Made by a program: the position numbers and the translations under genes
Assembly: GCA_013151565.1 (NCBI GenBank)
Contig: JAADIB010000181.1
Location: 2,785-35,090, forward strand
From: Chlorobiota bacterium
Lineage (GTDB): Bacteria > Bacteroidota > Ignavibacteria > Ignavibacteriales > Melioribacteraceae
Length of the DNA stretch: 32,306 nucleotides
Reading direction: 5' to 3'
Shown here: in pieces, positions 20,683 through 31,723 of the stretch
Position numbering within the stretch: the first letter of the stretch is position 1
Layout of the letters: every line of letters starts with the position of its first letter
Notes under the pieces: model-generated
Seen by the model: only the letters and a program-made list of their open reading frames with translations
Databases searched by the model: none
What the model was told of the DNA's origin: nothing

Positions 20683-21580
20683 CTAAGTCACTGATTTTTG
20701 TAATTGATGTTTCTTGGCAGTATTGTATTATTCCTTCAATAATTTCAATTGAGGCATTCGGATTTATAAAGTTAATTGTACCTATCTGTATTGCCGTTGC
20801 ACCGCATATCATAAACTCAACGGCGTCTTTCCAGTTTGCAATACCGCCGATCCCGATGATCGGTATATCTACATTCCGGCTTATCTCGAGCACCTTAGCA
20901 AGTGCAACAGGTTTTATTGCCGGACCGGACAAGCCGCCTGTTATGTTTTTTATCCTCGGTTTTTTCGTATAAATATCAAAAGCGGTTCCAACCAGCGTAT
21001 TGATCGCAGAAACTGCATCAGCACCTTCATCTTTTGCTGCTTGTGCAAAATCTTTTATGGACGCTGTGTTCGGAGATAATTTGATTATAATCGGTTTGTC
21101 AGTAACGGCTCTTACTTTCTCAGTTATTCTTCTTACATTATTAACGTCATTCCCGAATATCAAACCGCCGTCTTTCACATTCGGACATGATACATTTATT
21201 TCAAAAGCTTTTACTGTATTTTCAGAATCAAGAGTCCTTGTGCATTCAACATATTCTTCAATAGTGCTGGCAGCAATGTTGCATATAAGCGTTGAACCTA
21301 TTTCTTTTAGGAATGGAATTTTAGTTTTAATGAATTCTTCCAAACCGACATTTGCTAATCCAATTGCATTTAACATCCCGGAGGATGTTTCAAATATTCT
21401 GTTCGGCGGATTACCTTTACGCGGCTTTAGTGAAACCGATTTTGTTACTATTCCTCCAATTCTACTCAAGTTGGTAAATTCTGATATTTCATTTCCATAA
21501 CCCACAGTGCCAGAAGCAAGCATTACAGGATTATTTAATTCTAAACTTCCGATCTTTACACTTAAATCTATTGAGTTCAT
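20663..21580 (-). CDS. pyrD: Dihydroorotate dehydrogenase, class 1B catalytic subunit
   Basis: NPVMLASGTVGYG, SVSLKPRKGNPPNRIFETSSGMLNAIGLAN, NVSCPNVKDGG, IIKLSPNTASIKDFAQAA, GGLSGPAIKPVAL, IGIGGI. Confidence 0.96.
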   Translation of the reverse strand: MNSIDLSVKIGSLELNNPVMLASGTVGYGNEISEFTNLSRIGGIVTKSVSLKPRKGNPPNRIFETSSGMLNAIGLANVGLEEFIKTKIPFLKEIGSTLICNIAASTIEEYVECTRTLDSENTVKAFEINVSCPNVKDGGLIFGNDVNNVRRITEKVRAVTDKPIIIKLSPNTASIKDFAQAAKDEGADAVSAINTLVGTAFDIYTKKPRIKNITGGLSGPAIKPVALAKVLEISRNVDIPIIGIGGIANWKDAVEFMICGATAIQIGTINFINPNASIEIIEGIIQYCQETSITKISDLVGTYSI

Positions 21581-22335
21581 AATTTCACATCCACTGCATT
21601 AAATACCGGACCATCCTTACAAACCAGAACGAAACCATCTTTCCGGCTGCTTTGAACTACACAGCCTTGACAAATTCCAAATCCGCATGCCATAACACTC
21701 TCAGTTGAGATTTCACATTCAATTCCTTCCTTTATACTAAACTCGCTTACTGCACGAAGCATCGGTGTTGGACCGCATGCAAATATTTTCGTTTCGTTTT
21801 TATCATATTCATTAATTTTCGATTTGAGCAGCTTAACAACATTACCGTGAAACCCTTCCGAACCGTCATCCGTTGAAGTTAAAATGTTTTTCATCTTATA
21901 CGATATCAAATCATCTTTAGTCCTTCCGCCGATAAAACAAGAAATCTGCCTATCCTCAGCAATCTCGTTAAGCAGAAACGGAAACGGTGCAGCGCCAATT
22001 CCTCCCGCTACAATAAGTACATTTTTATAATTCCCTTCATAATTAAATCCATTACCAAGCGGACCGATGATGTTCAATCTATCACCCTTTCTCTTTTTTG
22101 AAAGTATCTCAGTACCTACGCCGACGATGTTGAACATGAATGATATCTTATCAGCAGCAATTTCACAAATACTAAACGGTCTTCGTAATAACGGAGAATT
22201 ATTGTCATTTACTTTTATGTTGCAGAACTGTCCGGGTTTAGCCTCCGCAGCAATTGATGGCGCAGAAACTTTTAATAGAAAAATATTTTTTTTGATTTCC
22301 TGAACTGATTCAACTATAGTATCAACTTGTAACAA
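21577..22335 (-). CDS. pyrK: Dihydroorotate dehydrogenase electron transfer subunit
   Basis: LLRRPFSICEI, VLIVAGGIGAAPFPFL, FACGPTPMLRAV, [2Fe-2S] CGFGICQGC...C; overlaps pyrD by 4 nt. Confidence 0.95.
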   Translation of the reverse strand: MLQVDTIVESVQEIKKNIFLLKVSAPSIAAEAKPGQFCNIKVNDNNSPLLRRPFSICEIAADKISFMFNIVGVGTEILSKKRKGDRLNIIGPLGNGFNYEGNYKNVLIVAGGIGAAPFPFLLNEIAEDRQISCFIGGRTKDDLISYKMKNILTSTDDGSEGFHGNVVKLLKSKINEYDKNETKIFACGPTPMLRAVSEFSIKEGIECEISTESVMACGFGICQGCVVQSSRKDGFVLVCKDGPVFNAVDVKL

Positions 22336-22387: not shown

Positions 22388-23020
22388 TTAACTATTCTCT
22401 TTTTCGATTAAAGTAATTTTGTCTAATCTTCTTTGATGTCTTCCGCCTTCAAAGTTTGTATCCATAAATTTATTTAGGATTGATTTGATCGTTTCCTCGC
22501 CAAGAGTTTTTGCACCGACTACAAGAATATTTGCATCGTTATGAGCACGAGCGCTCCATGCTGAAAATTCATTGTAACATGTTGCGGCTCTAATTCCTTT
22601 AATTTTGTTTGCAGTAATAGCAGAAGGAATACCAGTTGCATCGACAATTATACCAAAATCAACCGAATCATCATTTACATTTACAGCAACTGCTTTTGCA
22701 TAATCCGGATAATCACACGAATCTTCACTGCTCGTACCAACATCAACAATATTGAAACCATTATCAATTAATATTTCTTTCAATATCTCTTTGATATGAT
22801 AGCCTGTATGATCAGATCCGATTGCTATTTTTTTCTTTGTTATCCAGGAGTCTGTTATTTCTTTCTTTGGTTCAGATTCAGAATTAATAACTTTGATCTT
22901 CAGATCATTAAGTTTATCCTTTGCTGCGGGAGTTATCAAAGTATTGCGGTCGATCTTTATACTGCTGCTTCCCGAACGATACTGATTGATAACATCTATT
23001 TCCGTGATAACCTTTTTCAA
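22388..23020 (-). CDS. rpiB: RpiB/LacAB family sugar-phosphate isomerase-like protein with N-terminal EutQ/EutT-like segment and substituted active-site loop
   Basis: KKIAIGSDHTGYHIKEILKEIL, DVGTSSEDSCDYPDYAKAVA, ARAHNDANILVVGAKTLG, TNFEGGRHQRRLDKI; N-terminus MKKVITEIDVINQYRSGSSSIKIDRNTLITPAAKDKLNDLKIKVI. Confidence 0.85.
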   Translation of the reverse strand: MKKVITEIDVINQYRSGSSSIKIDRNTLITPAAKDKLNDLKIKVINSESEPKKEITDSWITKKKIAIGSDHTGYHIKEILKEILIDNGFNIVDVGTSSEDSCDYPDYAKAVAVNVNDDSVDFGIIVDATGIPSAITANKIKGIRAATCYNEFSAWSARAHNDANILVVGAKTLGEETIKSILNKFMDTNFEGGRHQRRLDKITLIEKENS

Positions 23021-23035
23021 TTACTCATCCTAATC

Positions 23036-24106
23036 CTAAAGCAACTCATCTTTTTTATTCATCTTCAAATAATCAACCACAAGTTTTACATCTTGGGCAT
23101 AATCTCTGTGACAGACTAGTGTAGCATCGTCAGTATTGATAACTATCAAGTCTTTGGCACCAATAACAGCAGTAAACTTTTTATCGGAATGCACATAAGT
23201 TCTTTCCGAGTTTTCCAAGTAAACTGCGCCTTTCTCAACGTTATCGTTTGTGTCCTTCTCCAGGATGTGATAAACGGCATCCCAACTTCCAACATCACTC
23301 CAATCGAATTTACCTTTGATCAAATATACGTTTTTTGAATTTTCCATTATACCATAATCGACAGAAGTACTTCTTAGCTGACCATAAACATTAATCAAGG
23401 TAGTTTCAAAATCGTCTTTTCCGATTGATTCTTGAATTTCTTTGAGACCAAAACTGAGATCAGGCATGTATTCTTTTATTTCTTCTAGAATCACGCTCGC
23501 TTTCCAGATGAACATACCGGAGTTCCAGAAAAAATCACCGGACTCAAGAAAGCGTTCTGCCGTTGCCAGATTAGGCTTTTCGGCAAATCGAATAACTTTG
23601 TGCAATTCGTTATCATCATCATTACTCTCATCAATTTGAATATAACCGTAACCCGTATCAGGTCTTGTAGGATGAATACCGATCGTCACCAGGGCATCAG
23701 TTTTTTCAGCATAGCTTACAGCTTTATTCAATGTGCTGATAAATTTTTCTTTATCGTTGATCAAGTGATCAGCAGGAAGAATAATGGTTATAGCATTATC
23801 GTATTTTTCTTCTATTAGAATTGATGCAAGACCGATACAAGCAGCAGTATTTTTTCCAAAAGGTTCAACAATTATATTCTCTTCAGGAAGATCATTCAAC
23901 TGTTCAACAATTTTATCTTTCTGTAATTTATTTGTAACAACGTATATGTTTTCGTTTTTTACTAACGGATTTAATCTATCGACCGTATTCTGGATCATTG
24001 ATCTATCCGTAAAAAGGGTCAGCAATTGCTTCGGTTCTACTTGTCTGCTTCGAGGCCAAAATCGTGAGCCAACACCGCCTGCCATGATTATTGCGACAAC
24101 TTCCAT
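23036..24106 (-). CDS. manC: Mannose-1-phosphate guanylyltransferase
   Basis: IIMAGGVGSRFWPRSRQVEPKQLL, EPFGKNTAACIGLAS, ILPADHLI, IGIHPTRPDTGYGYIQ, RFAEKPN, FFWNSGMFIWKA, FDWSDVGSWDA. Confidence 0.95.
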   Translation of the reverse strand: MEVVAIIMAGGVGSRFWPRSRQVEPKQLLTLFTDRSMIQNTVDRLNPLVKNENIYVVTNKLQKDKIVEQLNDLPEENIIVEPFGKNTAACIGLASILIEEKYDNAITIILPADHLINDKEKFISTLNKAVSYAEKTDALVTIGIHPTRPDTGYGYIQIDESNDDDNELHKVIRFAEKPNLATAERFLESGDFFWNSGMFIWKASVILEEIKEYMPDLSFGLKEIQESIGKDDFETTLINVYGQLRSTSVDYGIMENSKNVYLIKGKFDWSDVGSWDAVYHILEKDTNDNVEKGAVYLENSERTYVHSDKKFTAVIGAKDLIVINTDDATLVCHRDYAQDVKLVVDYLKMNKKDELL

Positions 24107-26699: not shown

Positions 26700-28085
26700 A
26701 TGAAAAAACTTACTCGCAGAAATTTTTTAAAGAGCAGTGTATTTGCCACTGCTGGTATTTTCTCAATCCCAACAATATTGCCAGCTAATTTTCTCAAAAA
26801 CGGATCGCCAAATGACAAGATAAACATTGGTGTTATTGGCTGCGGTAGAATTGCACGTGGTCACGATATACCGGAAACGATCAAATACAATAGTGCTAGA
26901 ATTGTGGCTGTTTGTGATGTTGATTCCAAACGGATGAAAGAAGGCAAAGAATTCGTCGAAGGATTATACCTCAAGAAAACAGGGAAGAAAGATTTTGTAA
27001 ATATAAAGATGTACGGAGATTTCCGAGACCTGATTGCTGATAAAGATATAGATGCAGTAATTGTAAGCACTCCGGATTTTTGGCATGCGCTTCCGGCAAT
27101 TGCCGCTGCTAGAGCTGGTAAAGATATTTATCTTCAAAAACCGTTATCCCTTACAATCCAAGAGGGACGTGCTTTAAGTGACACCATTCATAGAACAGGA
27201 AGAATTCTTCAGGTTGGAAGTCAGCAGCGGTCACTTAATCCATGGCCACAATTTCATCGGGCGTGTGAACTTGTACGGAACGGTCGCATTGGTGAGATCA
27301 AAACAATCCAGATTGGTTTACCGGGTGATCCTTCGGGGAATGAAGAACCAGAAATGCCAATTCCAGAAAATTTAAATTATAATATGTGGCTTGGTTCAAC
27401 ACCCAGTGTCTATTACACTGAAAAGCGAGTTCATCCCCAAAGTGGTTATTCACGTCCTGGATGGTTACGGATTGAACAGTTCGGCTCTGGAATGATAACC
27501 GGTTGGGGAGCACATCATATTGATACTGCTCATTGGGGAATGGGAACGGAATATACAGGACCGATTGAAATTGTAGGAGAAGCCGTATTTCCTAAAAGCG
27601 GTTTGTGGAATGTACATGGTGATTTTAAAATAAAATCAAAGTATGCAAATGGTGTTGAAATGTTTATTAGCGGTGACAATCCAAATGGTGTTAGGTTCGA
27701 AGGAACGGAAGGATGGATATTTGTATCACGCGGAGCTGTTAAAGTTACTTCATCCGATCCCGGGACTGCTGATAAATCTTTGAAAGCATTAGATGCCAGT
27801 GATCAGAAAATATTGGATTCAGTTATTAGTCCCAACGAAATCCATTTGTATGAAAGTAAAGAGCAGCACGGAAATTGGCTGGAAAGTATTCGCAGCCGTA
27901 AACAGCCGGTAGCGCCCGCAGAGATAGGACACCGTTCATGCTCAGCGTGTCTTATCAGTCATATCAGTATGAAGCTGCCAAGAAAACTTTATTGGGATCC
28001 AGCAAAGGAGAGGTTTAAAAATGATGACGAAGCAAACTCCATGTTGTCAAGACCAATGAGATTACCATGGAGAGGTCTTTTGTAA
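26700..28085 (+). CDS. Gfo/Idh/MocA family oxidoreductase with Tat signal
   Basis: Twin-arginine leader KKLTRRNFLKSSVFATAG; Rossmann INIGVIGCGRIARGHD; DIDAVIVSTPDFWHALPAIAAARAGKDIYLQKPLSLT. Confidence 0.93.
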   Translation: MKKLTRRNFLKSSVFATAGIFSIPTILPANFLKNGSPNDKINIGVIGCGRIARGHDIPETIKYNSARIVAVCDVDSKRMKEGKEFVEGLYLKKTGKKDFVNIKMYGDFRDLIADKDIDAVIVSTPDFWHALPAIAAARAGKDIYLQKPLSLTIQEGRALSDTIHRTGRILQVGSQQRSLNPWPQFHRACELVRNGRIGEIKTIQIGLPGDPSGNEEPEMPIPENLNYNMWLGSTPSVYYTEKRVHPQSGYSRPGWLRIEQFGSGMITGWGAHHIDTAHWGMGTEYTGPIEIVGEAVFPKSGLWNVHGDFKIKSKYANGVEMFISGDNPNGVRFEGTEGWIFVSRGAVKVTSSDPGTADKSLKALDASDQKILDSVISPNEIHLYESKEQHGNWLESIRSRKQPVAPAEIGHRSCSACLISHISMKLPRKLYWDPAKERFKNDDEANSMLSRPMRLPWRGLL

Positions 28086-28102
28086 ATAAAACCGGCAGAT
28101 AG

Positions 28103-29308
28103 ATGATTAACAAAATTATATTTCTGATAATTACGATTGGAGTATTTTCATCATGCTCAGATAATCATGAAGAAATTGTTTTATCTAACATTGTTAGAAA
28201 TCTTGATTCACCCATTGAGATTGCTCCTGGTATAATCTCATTAGATAGTGATCTATTGAAAGCGCAGTTGGTGGATAACCCAAATATTGAATTTGTTCTG
28301 CAGAAAAGTCCCTCGATTTTTTACTCTGGTGATAGTACTTTACAAAATTCATATTCAACAGTTATCGGTATATCTGTTATTGAAGGGAAGTATAAAATAA
28401 TTCCATATACTCAAAAACCGGTATTCTCATTAAACAATAATGAGAATGGTCGACTGACAATTATGGAAAATAATAACCCAGTATTAAGCTATAATTTTGG
28501 AATGCAGCTTCGTGAAAATGTTCCTAAAAGATATCGAAGGTCTACATATATCCACCCGATTTATGATTTGAAGGGAAATATTTTAACCGATGATTTTCCA
28601 AAAGATCATTTCCATCACCGAGGACTTTCCTGGATGTGGCCGAAAGTATTTATCGATAGTGTGAGATATGATCTTTGGCATATATACGGTATGAAAGGTG
28701 AACTTGAGGGAATACATCAAGTTTTTGAAAAGTGGGTTGTAAAAGAAGTTGGTCCGATTTGTGCAACGATTGGAGCAAAGAATGTTTGGCAGCTTGATGA
28801 TGGAAAGAAAGTAATGGATGAATGGGTATATGTGAAAGTCTATCGAGCAACTGATAATGCGCGTGCGATAGATATCAAACTTATTTGGAAAGCTATTGCG
28901 CCCATTGGTATTGAGGGACAGACTAAAAAAGGTTACGGTGGATTAAATTTTCGATTCGCTCCAAGAACGGATACTCAAATATTTTCAAACCTCGGTGAAG
29001 AAGAAGACAGCGACCTCAAGAAATTACCATGGGCTGATGAATCTGCAAAGTTCAATGGTAAAAATTATTTTTCCGGTGTAAGCATATTTCAGCAAAAAGA
29101 TAATAACAATTATCCAGCTGGGTGGTGTTTGCGTCATTACGGATTTTTAGGGGTTGCATGGCCGGGAGTTGAACGATATGATATGAAACCAGGTGAAACA
29201 CTCTCTTTAAGTTTTAGAATCTGGATCCACCAGGGTAATGCTGAAGAAGGTAATGTTGAATCAGCTTATGATATATTCAATAATCCTCCGAAGATAGAAT
29301 TCAAATAA
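28103..29308 (+). CDS. DUF6807/PmoA-family exported lipoprotein
   Basis: Lipobox-like GVFSSCSDN; YIHPIYDLKGNILTDDFPKDHFHHRGLSWMWPKVFID; C-terminal WCLRHYGFLGVAWPG...FRIWIHQG. Confidence 0.78.
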   Translation: MINKIIFLIITIGVFSSCSDNHEEIVLSNIVRNLDSPIEIAPGIISLDSDLLKAQLVDNPNIEFVLQKSPSIFYSGDSTLQNSYSTVIGISVIEGKYKIIPYTQKPVFSLNNNENGRLTIMENNNPVLSYNFGMQLRENVPKRYRRSTYIHPIYDLKGNILTDDFPKDHFHHRGLSWMWPKVFIDSVRYDLWHIYGMKGELEGIHQVFEKWVVKEVGPICATIGAKNVWQLDDGKKVMDEWVYVKVYRATDNARAIDIKLIWKAIAPIGIEGQTKKGYGGLNFRFAPRTDTQIFSNLGEEEDSDLKKLPWADESAKFNGKNYFSGVSIFQQKDNNNYPAGWCLRHYGFLGVAWPGVERYDMKPGETLSLSFRIWIHQGNAEEGNVESAYDIFNNPPKIEFK

Positions 29309-29334
29309 ATAAGATTAAAATAGTTGAGATAAAA

Positions 29335-30246
29335 ATGAAAAAACTACTAAGCAGTATAATTATTTCTGTTCAATTGATGTTTCTTTGTTCAGTAACTTTT
29401 GCGCAATCTAATTTACTTTCCGCTGAGCAGCAAGATGCGAGAATTATTGTTAGAATAGATGATGTGACTTTTACAAGTTACCGCTATGGAGATGGACAAA
29501 AGTATCCGTACTTCTATCCACTAAATGGTCCAGCATCTGGCATTTCCGTAACAACTGAATCGAGTCTTCCATATCCACACCACCGTTCATTATGGTTTGC
29601 TTGCGATAAAGTTAATGGCGGGAATTATTGGCAGGAAGGAAATGAGCGTGGACAAATAATTTCCAGAGGTCCAGAAATATTGGAAAACAGTCCGACAAAA
29701 ATTCATATTAAAGATATATGTGATTGGAAACAACCTGACGAAAGCCCAGTAATTACAGACGAACGAGATATTATAATCACTGCACCATCCGATAATTTAA
29801 GAATAATTGATTTTACAATTACACTTAACGCTCTTACCGATATAGCAATATTAAATACAAATCATTCTCTTTTTTCTGCCAGAATGAATTCTGATCTATC
29901 TGTAAAAAGTGGAGGAGTTTTGAATAATGCTGAAGGAAAGTCAGGAGAAAAAGAAACTGCGGGAGTGGAATCTTCCTGGTGTGATTATTATGGCGAGCGA
30001 TTCGGAATAATTGAGGGATTAGCAATTTTTGATTCGCCACAGAATGTTTGGTATCCGAGCAAATGGTTTACAAGAGATTACGGCTTCTTTTCACCGACCA
30101 ACATGAATTGGAAGGAAGGGGATTTTACTATTAAAAAATCGGAATCAATTACATTCGAATACAGAGTAATAGTTCACACTGGGACAACCGAGCAAGCTGG
30201 AATTAAAAAGTTATATTCTCAATGGGCAGAAAACCTAGCGAAATAA
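29335..30246 (+). CDS. DUF6807/PmoA-family exported protein (paralogous architecture to upstream gene)
   Basis: Signal peptide ...MFLCSVTFAQS; YPYFYPLNGPASGISVTTESSLPYPHHRSLWFACDKVNGGNYW; C-terminal KWFTRDYGFFSPTNMNWKEGDFTIKKSESITFEYRVIVHTG. Confidence 0.8.
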   Translation: MKKLLSSIIISVQLMFLCSVTFAQSNLLSAEQQDARIIVRIDDVTFTSYRYGDGQKYPYFYPLNGPASGISVTTESSLPYPHHRSLWFACDKVNGGNYWQEGNERGQIISRGPEILENSPTKIHIKDICDWKQPDESPVITDERDIIITAPSDNLRIIDFTITLNALTDIAILNTNHSLFSARMNSDLSVKSGGVLNNAEGKSGEKETAGVESSWCDYYGERFGIIEGLAIFDSPQNVWYPSKWFTRDYGFFSPTNMNWKEGDFTIKKSESITFEYRVIVHTGTTEQAGIKKLYSQWAENLAK

Positions 30247-30334
30247 TTTTGTGATGCGATAATATAGAAGCTTTGGAGTAAGTATTTGTAAAACCACTTT
30301 TGTCAAATCTAAATAGTAAATAGAAGGATATATT

Positions 30335-31723
30335 ATGAATCTCAAAATAGCAGAATTGATTTTTATTATTCCATTATTACTCGTTGTTATTTCTTGTAGC
30401 AATAAAAATGAATCAATTAAAAAATTTACCGGCGCTGATCATGAAATAAAACTGATGATACTTGATCCTGGACATTTTCATGCTGGACTTGTGCAAAAAG
30501 TTCAATATGATCAAGTATCACCGTTAGTATATATTTACGCACCGGAGGGGCAGGATGTGAAAGATCATCTAGCACGAGTTGATGGTTTTAATAACCGCGC
30601 AGTAAATCCAACAAATTGGAAATCAAAAATATATACCGGGTTCGATTATTTGGAAAAAATGATTTCTGAAAAACCGGGTAATGTAATGATTACATCCGGA
30701 AAGAATGATAAGAAAATCATTTATATCAAAGCCGCTATTGATGCAGGGATAAACGTATTTGCCGACAAACCTATGTGTATTGATAAAGAAGGATTTGAAT
30801 TGCTTATTAAAACTTTTGAAGCAGCAAAGAAGAATAATGTTTTACTATATGACATAATGACCGAACGGAGTGAGATTACCTCAATCATGCAAAAGGAATT
30901 GATTGAGGTTCCAGAAGTATTTGGTACAATAATTCAAGGTTCACTTGAGAACCCGGCAGTTGTAAAATCGAGTGTCCATCATTTCTTTAAGTATGTTGCA
31001 GGTAAACCTCTTAAAAGACCAGCTTGGTTTTTTGATTCTGCTCAACAGGGCGATGGTCTTGTAGATGTAACAACTCACTTAGTAGATCTCATTCAATGGG
31101 AATTATTTCCCGAACAAATTCTCAACTATAAAACAGATGTTGAAGATATTGTTCCCAAGCATTGGCCCACCAAATTAACTTTAGAGCAGTTCAGCAATGT
31201 AACAAAATTAGAAAAGTTTCCTGAGTTTCTTCAATCGAAAATTATAGATAATGTGCTTCCGGTTTATAGCAATGGTGAGATTAATTATTCATTGAAAGGA
31301 ATCCATGCGAAAATAGTTGTCGAATGGAAATACCAGGCTCCAAAGGGTGGCGGTGATACTCATTACTCAATCATTAAAGGAACCAAATCAAATATAATTA
31401 TTAAGCAAGGGAAAGAGCAAAATTATAAACCGGAATTATATGTTGAGGCAGCTAAAGATGAAGATAAGGAGGAATTGAATAAACAATTAAATATATCAGT
31501 TACAAATCTTCAAAATAAATATCCCGGAATTGAAGTTGAAAGAGAAAATGAATATTGGCATATAATTATTCCCGATAAATATCGTGTCGGACACGAAGCT
31601 CATTTTGGTCAAGTAATGGAACGGTATCTAGGTTACCTTGTTGATGGAAAACTACCTAAGTGGGAAGTTCCAAATATGATTACAAAATATTATACAACAA
31701 CAGAAGCTTTGGAGATGAGATAG
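30335..31723 (+). CDS. Gfo/Idh/MocA-type putative oxidoreductase, predicted lipoprotein
   Basis: Lipobox-like LVVISCSN; LMILDPGHFHAGLVQK; YIKAAIDAGINVFADKPMCID; HHFFKYVAGKPLKRPAWFFDSAQQGDGLVDVTTHLVDLIQWE. Confidence 0.82.
   Translation: MNLKIAELIFIIPLLLVVISCSNKNESIKKFTGADHEIKLMILDPGHFHAGLVQKVQYDQVSPLVYIYAPEGQDVKDHLARVDGFNNRAVNPTNWKSKIYTGFDYLEKMISEKPGNVMITSGKNDKKIIYIKAAIDAGINVFADKPMCIDKEGFELLIKTFEAAKKNNVLLYDIMTERSEITSIMQKELIEVPEVFGTIIQGSLENPAVVKSSVHHFFKYVAGKPLKRPAWFFDSAQQGDGLVDVTTHLVDLIQWELFPEQILNYKTDVEDIVPKHWPTKLTLEQFSNVTKLEKFPEFLQSKIIDNVLPVYSNGEINYSLKGIHAKIVVEWKYQAPKGGGDTHYSIIKGTKSNIIIKQGKEQNYKPELYVEAAKDEDKEELNKQLNISVTNLQNKYPGIEVERENEYWHIIIPDKYRVGHEAHFGQVMERYLGYLVDGKLPKWEVPNMITKYYTTTEALEMR

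Follow-up and report, generated by a model that had tools for sequence, protein, structure and literature searches.

In this study, a protein of 210 residues, encoded in a 32,306-nucleotide stretch of DNA (the window) from a Chlorobiota bacterium, was investigated. We consider it likely, with a probability of roughly 0.7, that this protein is a shell-anchored sugar-phosphate isomerase with aspartate in place of the usual catalytic cysteine (Asp-type), and that it is cargo of a dispersed (FRAG) bacterial microcompartment (BMC) for (deoxy)ribose-5-phosphate, a reading in which encapsulation, shell docking, catalysis by the aspartate, the substrate and activity are inferred. Our data show the homology and domain structure of the protein, its conservation, its co-inheritance with shell genes and with the aldolase DeoC, its synteny, and its place in a single Asp-loop group that includes the RpiBs of SPU-type BMC loci.

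An RpiB domain with an aspartate loop and a EutQ-like N-terminal domain

The coding sequence begins with a TTG start codon and occupies positions 22388 to 23020 of the window on the minus strand. Residues 63-208 (22397-22834, minus strand) form an RpiB/LacAB sugar-phosphate isomerase domain, which was recognized by PF02502 (8e-52, 175 bits against a cut-off of 24.7), and the protein also passes the curated cut-off of the TIGR01120 rpiB model (167 bits against 138.65). The AF2 model of the whole protein has a mean pLDDT of 93, and its RpiB domain was matched by Foldseek to C. thermocellum 3he8 with a TMt of 0.98 and an rmsd of 0.7, and to E. coli 2vvr with a TM of 0.96. The fold is thus like that of the Cys66-type RpiBs of E. 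coli, Thermotoga and C. thermocellum, with TMt values of 0.95-0.98 to 3he8, 1o1x and 2vvr.

The active-site loop, VDATGIPSAITANK (residues 126-139; 22604-22645, minus strand), sets the protein apart from these enzymes. In the PDB alignment, which runs without gaps from query residues 63-208 to residues 2-147 of E. coli RpiB 2vvr, Asp127 is equivalent to Cys66, Thr129 to Thr68 and Pro132 to Gly71, and Ser133 stands where M. tuberculosis RpiB has Glu75. The loop reads IVDATGIPSAITANKI, and its codons GTC-GAT-GCA-ACT were confirmed in the raw DNA. The first-pass annotation had described an RpiB body with Asp at the catalytic Cys position without giving the strand; both parts of that description held, on a minus-strand reading frame. 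Two types of RpiB are known, for which Cys66 and, in M. tuberculosis, Glu75 have been described as the catalytic base (PMC4783025); the protein has neither residue, displaying Asp127 and Ser133 instead. Comparatively, it differs from the Cys66 type by the Asp at the base position, with Gly71 of the loop changed to Pro or Ala in many members of its clade, and from the Glu75 type by the Ser, but shares with both the ring-opening His99 and the phosphate-binding Arg133 and Arg137. Its His160, Arg194, Arg198, Tyr104, Asp70 and His71 correspond to E. coli His99, Arg133, Arg137, Tyr43, Asp9 and His10. Among 37 aligned long orthologues, Asp127, Ser133, D70, H71, Y104, H160, N161, R194, H195 and R198 are invariant or nearly so; the position of E. 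coli Thr68 is not conserved across this clade, being T, A, V, I, S or L. The Cys-to-Ser mutant (C69S) of Leishmania RpiB is inactive on ribose-5-phosphate (PMC4783025), and a working Asp base is therefore not guaranteed.

Residues 1-46 (22883-23020, minus strand) make up a compact domain containing a TPxAxD motif, with the order strand-helix-strand-strand-helix-strand in the AF2 model and pLDDT block means of about 95-98 over residues 1-40. A flexible linker follows at residues 47-62 (22835-22882, minus strand), disordered in the model, with the lowest pLDDT (<50) at residues 53-60. The N-terminal extension of about 60 residues reported at first pass was upheld overall, its folded part being about 46 residues long. 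This N-terminus matched TIGR02536 (eut_hyp) at 2.8e-5 over residues 2-45 and the EutQ model NF012001 at 0.01 over residues 1-52. A profile built from 33 orthologous N-termini (A2) recovered E. coli EutQ with an E-value of 2.7e-7 in a proteome-sized search space (4300), hhalign of the N-domain profile against EutQ gave 1.9e-9, and EutT was matched more weakly, at 1.3e-4. The suspected likeness to EutQ and EutT was therefore sustained, in the case of EutT more weakly, and the EutQ sequence quoted in the first-pass annotation agrees with the E. coli record. Over the whole assembled genome, the A2 profile retrieved exactly two proteins, namely the 210-residue RpiB and a 97-residue protein of a PVM-like BMC locus on contig C98 (6e-9; hhalign 2.3e-9), for which a tblastn search against plasmids gave no match. 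It also retrieved the true EutQ of a relative (G119), identified by PF06249 and NF012001, at 4.6e-10. In the Pfam scan of the 210-residue protein only RpiB and a sub-threshold PGM match were noticed, the C-terminal cupin of EutQ (PF06249) being absent, and no Pfam family for the EutQ-type module was found in scans of this protein, the 97-residue protein and one stand-alone protein of an SPU-type locus.

Homology between the N-domain and residues 1-48 of EutQ is accordingly shown at the sequence level; docking to the shell is inferred. Residues 1-99 of Salmonella EutQ alone take GFP into BMCs, with helices H1/H2 binding the EutM/EutL shell interface and H3/H4 binding cargo peptides (PMC12487888). 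Residues 1-46 of our protein align with EutQ 1-47/48, the shell-binding H1/H2 part, but the protein lacks both the H3/H4 cargo-binding region and the cupin/acetate-kinase domain, and harbors an isomerase in its place. The earlier proposal of an RpiB paralogue repurposed or recruited with a domain of BMC enzymes is supported at the sequence level.

Co-inheritance with shell genes and DeoC in the class

The survey covered 197 genomes of the class, taken as species representatives and including many MAGs, and the lists under the contingency tables were transcribed from the search-output tables. Two kinds of RpiB were recognized, a long one matched from query residue 1-5 and a short one matched only from about residue 60; wherever sequences were examined, the Cys66 position is Asp in the long kind and Cys in the short. 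The long RpiB was detected in 65 of the 197 genomes, and because the Asp loop and the N-domain both recur there, they cannot be put down to chance. Shell genes (PF00936) were found in 75 of the 197, including 64 of the 65 genomes with a long RpiB (contingency 64/1/11/121, Fisher 5.5e-39), the single exception being a 78%-complete assembly. Permuting the labels inside each family, so that most of the common ancestry is taken out, gave an association as high in only 8 of 20000 permutations. Shell genes without a complete long RpiB were observed in 11 genomes. The gene is cut by a contig end in G041, and G144 is a 71%-complete assembly; G085 has an Asp-RpiB tagged with an encapsulation peptide (EP) inside a full SPU-type locus, G119 a EUT-type locus with a real EutQ, and G065, G096 and G174 PVM-like loci; in G130 and G165 the shell matches number just one or two and are weaker, and G073 and G114 contain degenerate long-RpiB orthologues.

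The long RpiB is also co-inherited with an SPU-type DeoC (TIGR00126, 281.8 bits), which in this class carries about 60 extra N-terminal residues beginning in an EP-like helix, as judged by eye. This EP-DeoC is present in 67 genomes of the class, among them 63 of the 65 that have a long RpiB (p 6e-44). The exceptions are G031, where DeoC is cut by a contig end, and the present genome, in whose assembly no DeoC (PF01791) above the cut-off was found. Seven relatives of the same family have the fixed order relA-ruvX-BMC-H-BMC-H(ext)-ybbR-(tmk)-ctp-...-uvrC-deoC, with EP-DeoC behind uvrC at about 7-12 kb from the BMC-H pair. Since contig C443 of the present genome keeps this order and stops inside uvrC, its DeoC probably lies in an assembly gap, and the absence of DeoC as an argument against the SPU link was dropped. 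The position of the gene away from the shell loci and its co-inheritance with an SPU-type DeoC are shown, and go beyond what the first-pass annotation had claimed.

FRAG BMCs have been described in Ignavibacteriae as having dispersed shell genes, a separate BMC-P triplet and no obvious signature enzyme, with their function expected to emerge later (PMC8217296). The present genome fits this description, as its shell genes lie at several sites, with a BMC-H pair on C443 and BMC-P genes on C138 (two) and C346 (one), besides the PVM-like locus; we assign no numbered subtype. Where the described FRAG type lacks a signature enzyme, here two candidates, the Asp-type RpiB and EP-DeoC, co-occur with the shell. 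The genome also encodes the phosphopentomutase DeoB (TIGR01696, 357.7 against 341.2). In L231 (G000:C138, 3-1403) the BMC-P pair lies directly 3' of deoB and 5' of an rpoD-like sigma factor gene, an adjacency of deoB and BMC-P that rests on a single genome. On C443, the second member of the BMC-H pair (L013, 7931-8704) has a Lys/Glu-rich C-terminal extension of about 170 residues, and long open frames in the relatives suggest the same. Again, the second, PVM-like locus of the genome is apparently split over two contigs (L012, G000:C98, 1900-6973, and L192, G000:C225, 1-2323) and comprises a DeoR regulator, BMC-P, the 97-residue protein with an EP and the EutQ-like domain, three BMC-H, an aldehyde dehydrogenase, further BMC-P, a class II aldolase with a C-terminal EP and acetate kinase. 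The aldehyde dehydrogenase found in the genome belongs to this locus, and none was identified for the FRAG-like shell.

It could be argued that the protein is an ordinary housekeeping RpiB whose extension does no harm and whose loop change is tolerated. In favor of this, it passes the TIGR01120 equivalog cut-off and is the sole RpiB of its genome, and other RpiBs also lack Cys66, that of M. tuberculosis using Glu75 (PMC4783025). A look for BMC shell genes and for a second canonical rpiA or rpiB in the genome disclosed, besides the shell genes, a canonical RpiA and no second RpiB; this RpiA can carry the housekeeping reaction. Moreover, where a second RpiB was examined in relatives outside family f1, it was in most cases a short Cys-type RpiB beside the long one. 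The housekeeping explanation leaves both the BMC co-inheritance and the conserved tag unexplained, and we regard it as very unlikely.

The gene itself sits among housekeeping genes. Directly upstream, at a distance of 15 bases, lies a manC-like mannose-1-phosphate guanylyltransferase gene (23036-24106, minus strand), and the downstream neighbor is a pyrK-like gene (21577-22335, minus strand) kept mainly in families f1 and f2. No shell genes were found near the long RpiB gene in the present genome, and locus-based BMC surveys would therefore miss it. Further along the window (26700-31723, plus strand), a cluster of secreted Gfo/Idh-type oxidoreductases and PmoA-like proteins was observed, probably for carbohydrate catabolism, as judged from the sequence only. 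The position beside manC raises a second alternative, namely that the protein isomerizes a GDP-mannose or heptose precursor together with its neighbor and is unrelated to a BMC, and immediate adjacency in 39 of 40 relatives' neighborhoods, across many families, speaks for it. Against it, the presence of the gene tracks shell genes and EP-DeoC almost perfectly, its N-domain is a BMC-associated module, its counterparts with an Asp loop in other phyla are found in BMC loci that lack manC, and the adjacency itself is absent in L050 (family f18), the one exception. We hold this alternative to be very unlikely, and a simple manC link was rejected, as the distribution follows shell genes and not manC synteny.

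An Asp-loop group shared with SPU-type microcompartments

In a scan of a genome collection, 80 RpiB loci were retrieved and their loop residue was assigned by alignment. Asp-type loci numbered 20, originating from Ignavibacteria/Bacteroidota, Chloroflexi, Acidobacteriota and Planctomycetota. BMC genes lie within 10 kb of eight of these 20 and of none of the 60 non-Asp loci (p 4e-6), and Cys-loop RpiBs exhibited neither an N-terminal tag nor BMC neighbors. The profile detected the N-domain in half of the Asp-type loci (10/20); others show, as judged by eye, an N-domain or an amphipathic EP-like helix, and in one (L185) RpiB is joined to DeoC. A tree of RpiBs was built with the loop columns removed and without the two degenerate orthologues (G073, G114), which have very long branches. 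All 50 Asp rows fell on one side of one branch with support of 99/87, in a group to which the RpiBs from SPU-type BMC loci in Chloroflexi, Planctomycetota and Acidobacteriota also belong. From this split and the BMC neighbors, we conclude that the Asp loop is the hallmark of a branch of RpiB that is linked to BMCs and includes the SPU-type enzymes, a relationship that the first-pass annotation had not claimed.

DeoC was confirmed in three SPU-type loci and adjoins RpiB in those scanned (L118, L220). A planctomycete BMC locus (L185, 10001-11467) displays an RpiB-DeoC fusion like that reported for Marinimicrobia. Stand-alone proteins of 113-134 residues with a EutQ-like N-domain were also noticed in SPU-type loci (L130:15300-15638, L136:15117-15491, L137:6278-6634 and L220:11377-11778); that of L220, the only one of the four scanned, has in addition a C-terminal match to residues 64-100 of EutQ. 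It is possible that these proteins are shell-cargo adaptors. The RpiB of SPU BMCs (pfam02502, with DeoC) is called a ribose-5-phosphate isomerase in surveys (PMC4207490, PMC8217296); the sections of these that bear on it do not mention the absent Cys, and the literature searched on SPU and FRAG enzymology held nothing beyond these two surveys. Our RpiB shares with the SPU enzymes the Asp-loop branch of the tree and the N-terminal tag, and the partner DeoC is of the same type, the DeoC of the class matching Chloroflexi and G085 SPU-type probes at 1e-86 to 1e-97. It differs in that its gene is not part of a shell locus and encodes a complete EutQ-like domain; several SPU-type loci instead combine an EP-helix tag with a EutQ-like domain on a small protein of its own, or have RpiB and DeoC fused. 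The definition of an SPU locus, with RpiB, DeoC and shell genes together, is not met here, as RpiB lies by manC, DeoC (in the relatives) behind uvrC, and BMC-P elsewhere.

Proposed role and significance

The degenerate orthologues bear on whether catalysis is the main function. Both G073 and G114 have the BMC-H pair, and in each the gene that follows manC still gives a strong A2 match in its N-domain (E-values of 1.3e-17 and 1.9e-13). The RpiB part has diverged strongly, scoring 36 and 70 bits against PF02502, and its loop, HN and GGRH motifs are gone. These genes lie at L213 1501-2115 and L218 1492-2223, with the RpiB domain decayed and the N-domain intact. Because two orthologues retain the N-domain with a ruined catalytic domain, the N-domain can outlive catalysis, and a structural role as well, as for EutQ, is likely. 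A third alternative takes this further and regards the protein mainly as a structural adaptor, fixed to the shell by its EutQ-like domain and offering the RpiB fold, as a dimer or tetramer, as a scaffold for other cargo, with catalysis secondary or lost. Besides the degenerate orthologues, the stand-alone EutQ-NTD-like adaptors of SPU-type loci and the double nature of EutQ as adaptor and enzyme (PMC12487888) favor it. Against it, the substrate-binding residues are invariant in all other orthologues examined, indicating that catalysis is retained, and the degenerate cases number only two, one of them from a 74%-complete assembly. We consider the adaptor explanation unlikely.

We thus prefer the reading of a shell-anchored Asp-type isomerase. 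In it, the BMC is of the FRAG type of Sutter 2021, its genes lying dispersed around the chromosome, and RpiB would be a cargo enzyme, with residues 1-46, as a module of the EutQ H1/H2 type, docking on the inner face of the shell and the linker leaving the RpiB domain free for work in the lumen. This domain is predicted to isomerize a phosphorylated pentose between its aldose and ketose forms, with the conversion of ribose-5-phosphate into ribulose-5-phosphate as the most likely reaction, and Asp127 would stand in for Cys66 as the general base. The putative partner of RpiB is the SPU-type deoxyribose-phosphate aldolase with the EP-like helix. Phosphopentomutase would supply the 5-phosphates from nucleoside-derived (deoxy)ribose-1-phosphate, RpiB and DeoC may process ribose-5-phosphate and deoxyribose-5-phosphate together, and the shell would hold the acetaldehyde released by DeoC inside. 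Encapsulation, docking, the catalytic base and the substrate are all inferences, as there are no localisation or enzyme data. The earlier suggestion that the protein is possibly not a ribose-5-phosphate isomerase remains undecided; ribose-5-phosphate is still a plausible substrate, because the partners, DeoC and a deoB beside the BMC-P pair, point to pentose phosphates. Several points weigh against the preferred reading, including the housekeeping location by manC, the presence of only the H1/H2 half of the EutQ N-terminal region, the variable Thr68 position, the catalytic loss in G073 and G114, the DeoC unseen in the present assembly, the inactive Leishmania Cys-to-Ser mutant, and the adjacency of deoB and BMC-P in a single genome. 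A bolder reading, which to us could as readily prove wrong as right, is that the FRAG BMCs of the class form one pathway, a scattered SPU-type (deoxy)ribose-5-phosphate organelle. Its signature would be a EutQ-type anchor fused to a third catalytic type of RpiB with an Asp base, bridging shell and lumen and isomerizing at once, with the enzyme half dead in some lineages and only the bridge left.

Our data place the RpiB of the class with the RpiBs of SPU microcompartments, and indicate that the RpiBs of such BMCs lack the textbook catalytic Cys and have an Asp in common, which we did not find stated in the literature searched. No Pfam family covers the EutQ shell-anchor module, which recurs in ethanolamine, PVM-like, SPU-type and FRAG-like systems. 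Through co-inheritance, the FRAG-like shells of this class, previously without a signature enzyme (PMC8217296), gain two candidate enzymes, and a concrete function, that of processing (deoxy)ribose-5-phosphate, may thereby be proposed for "fragmented" microcompartments whose job has been unknown.
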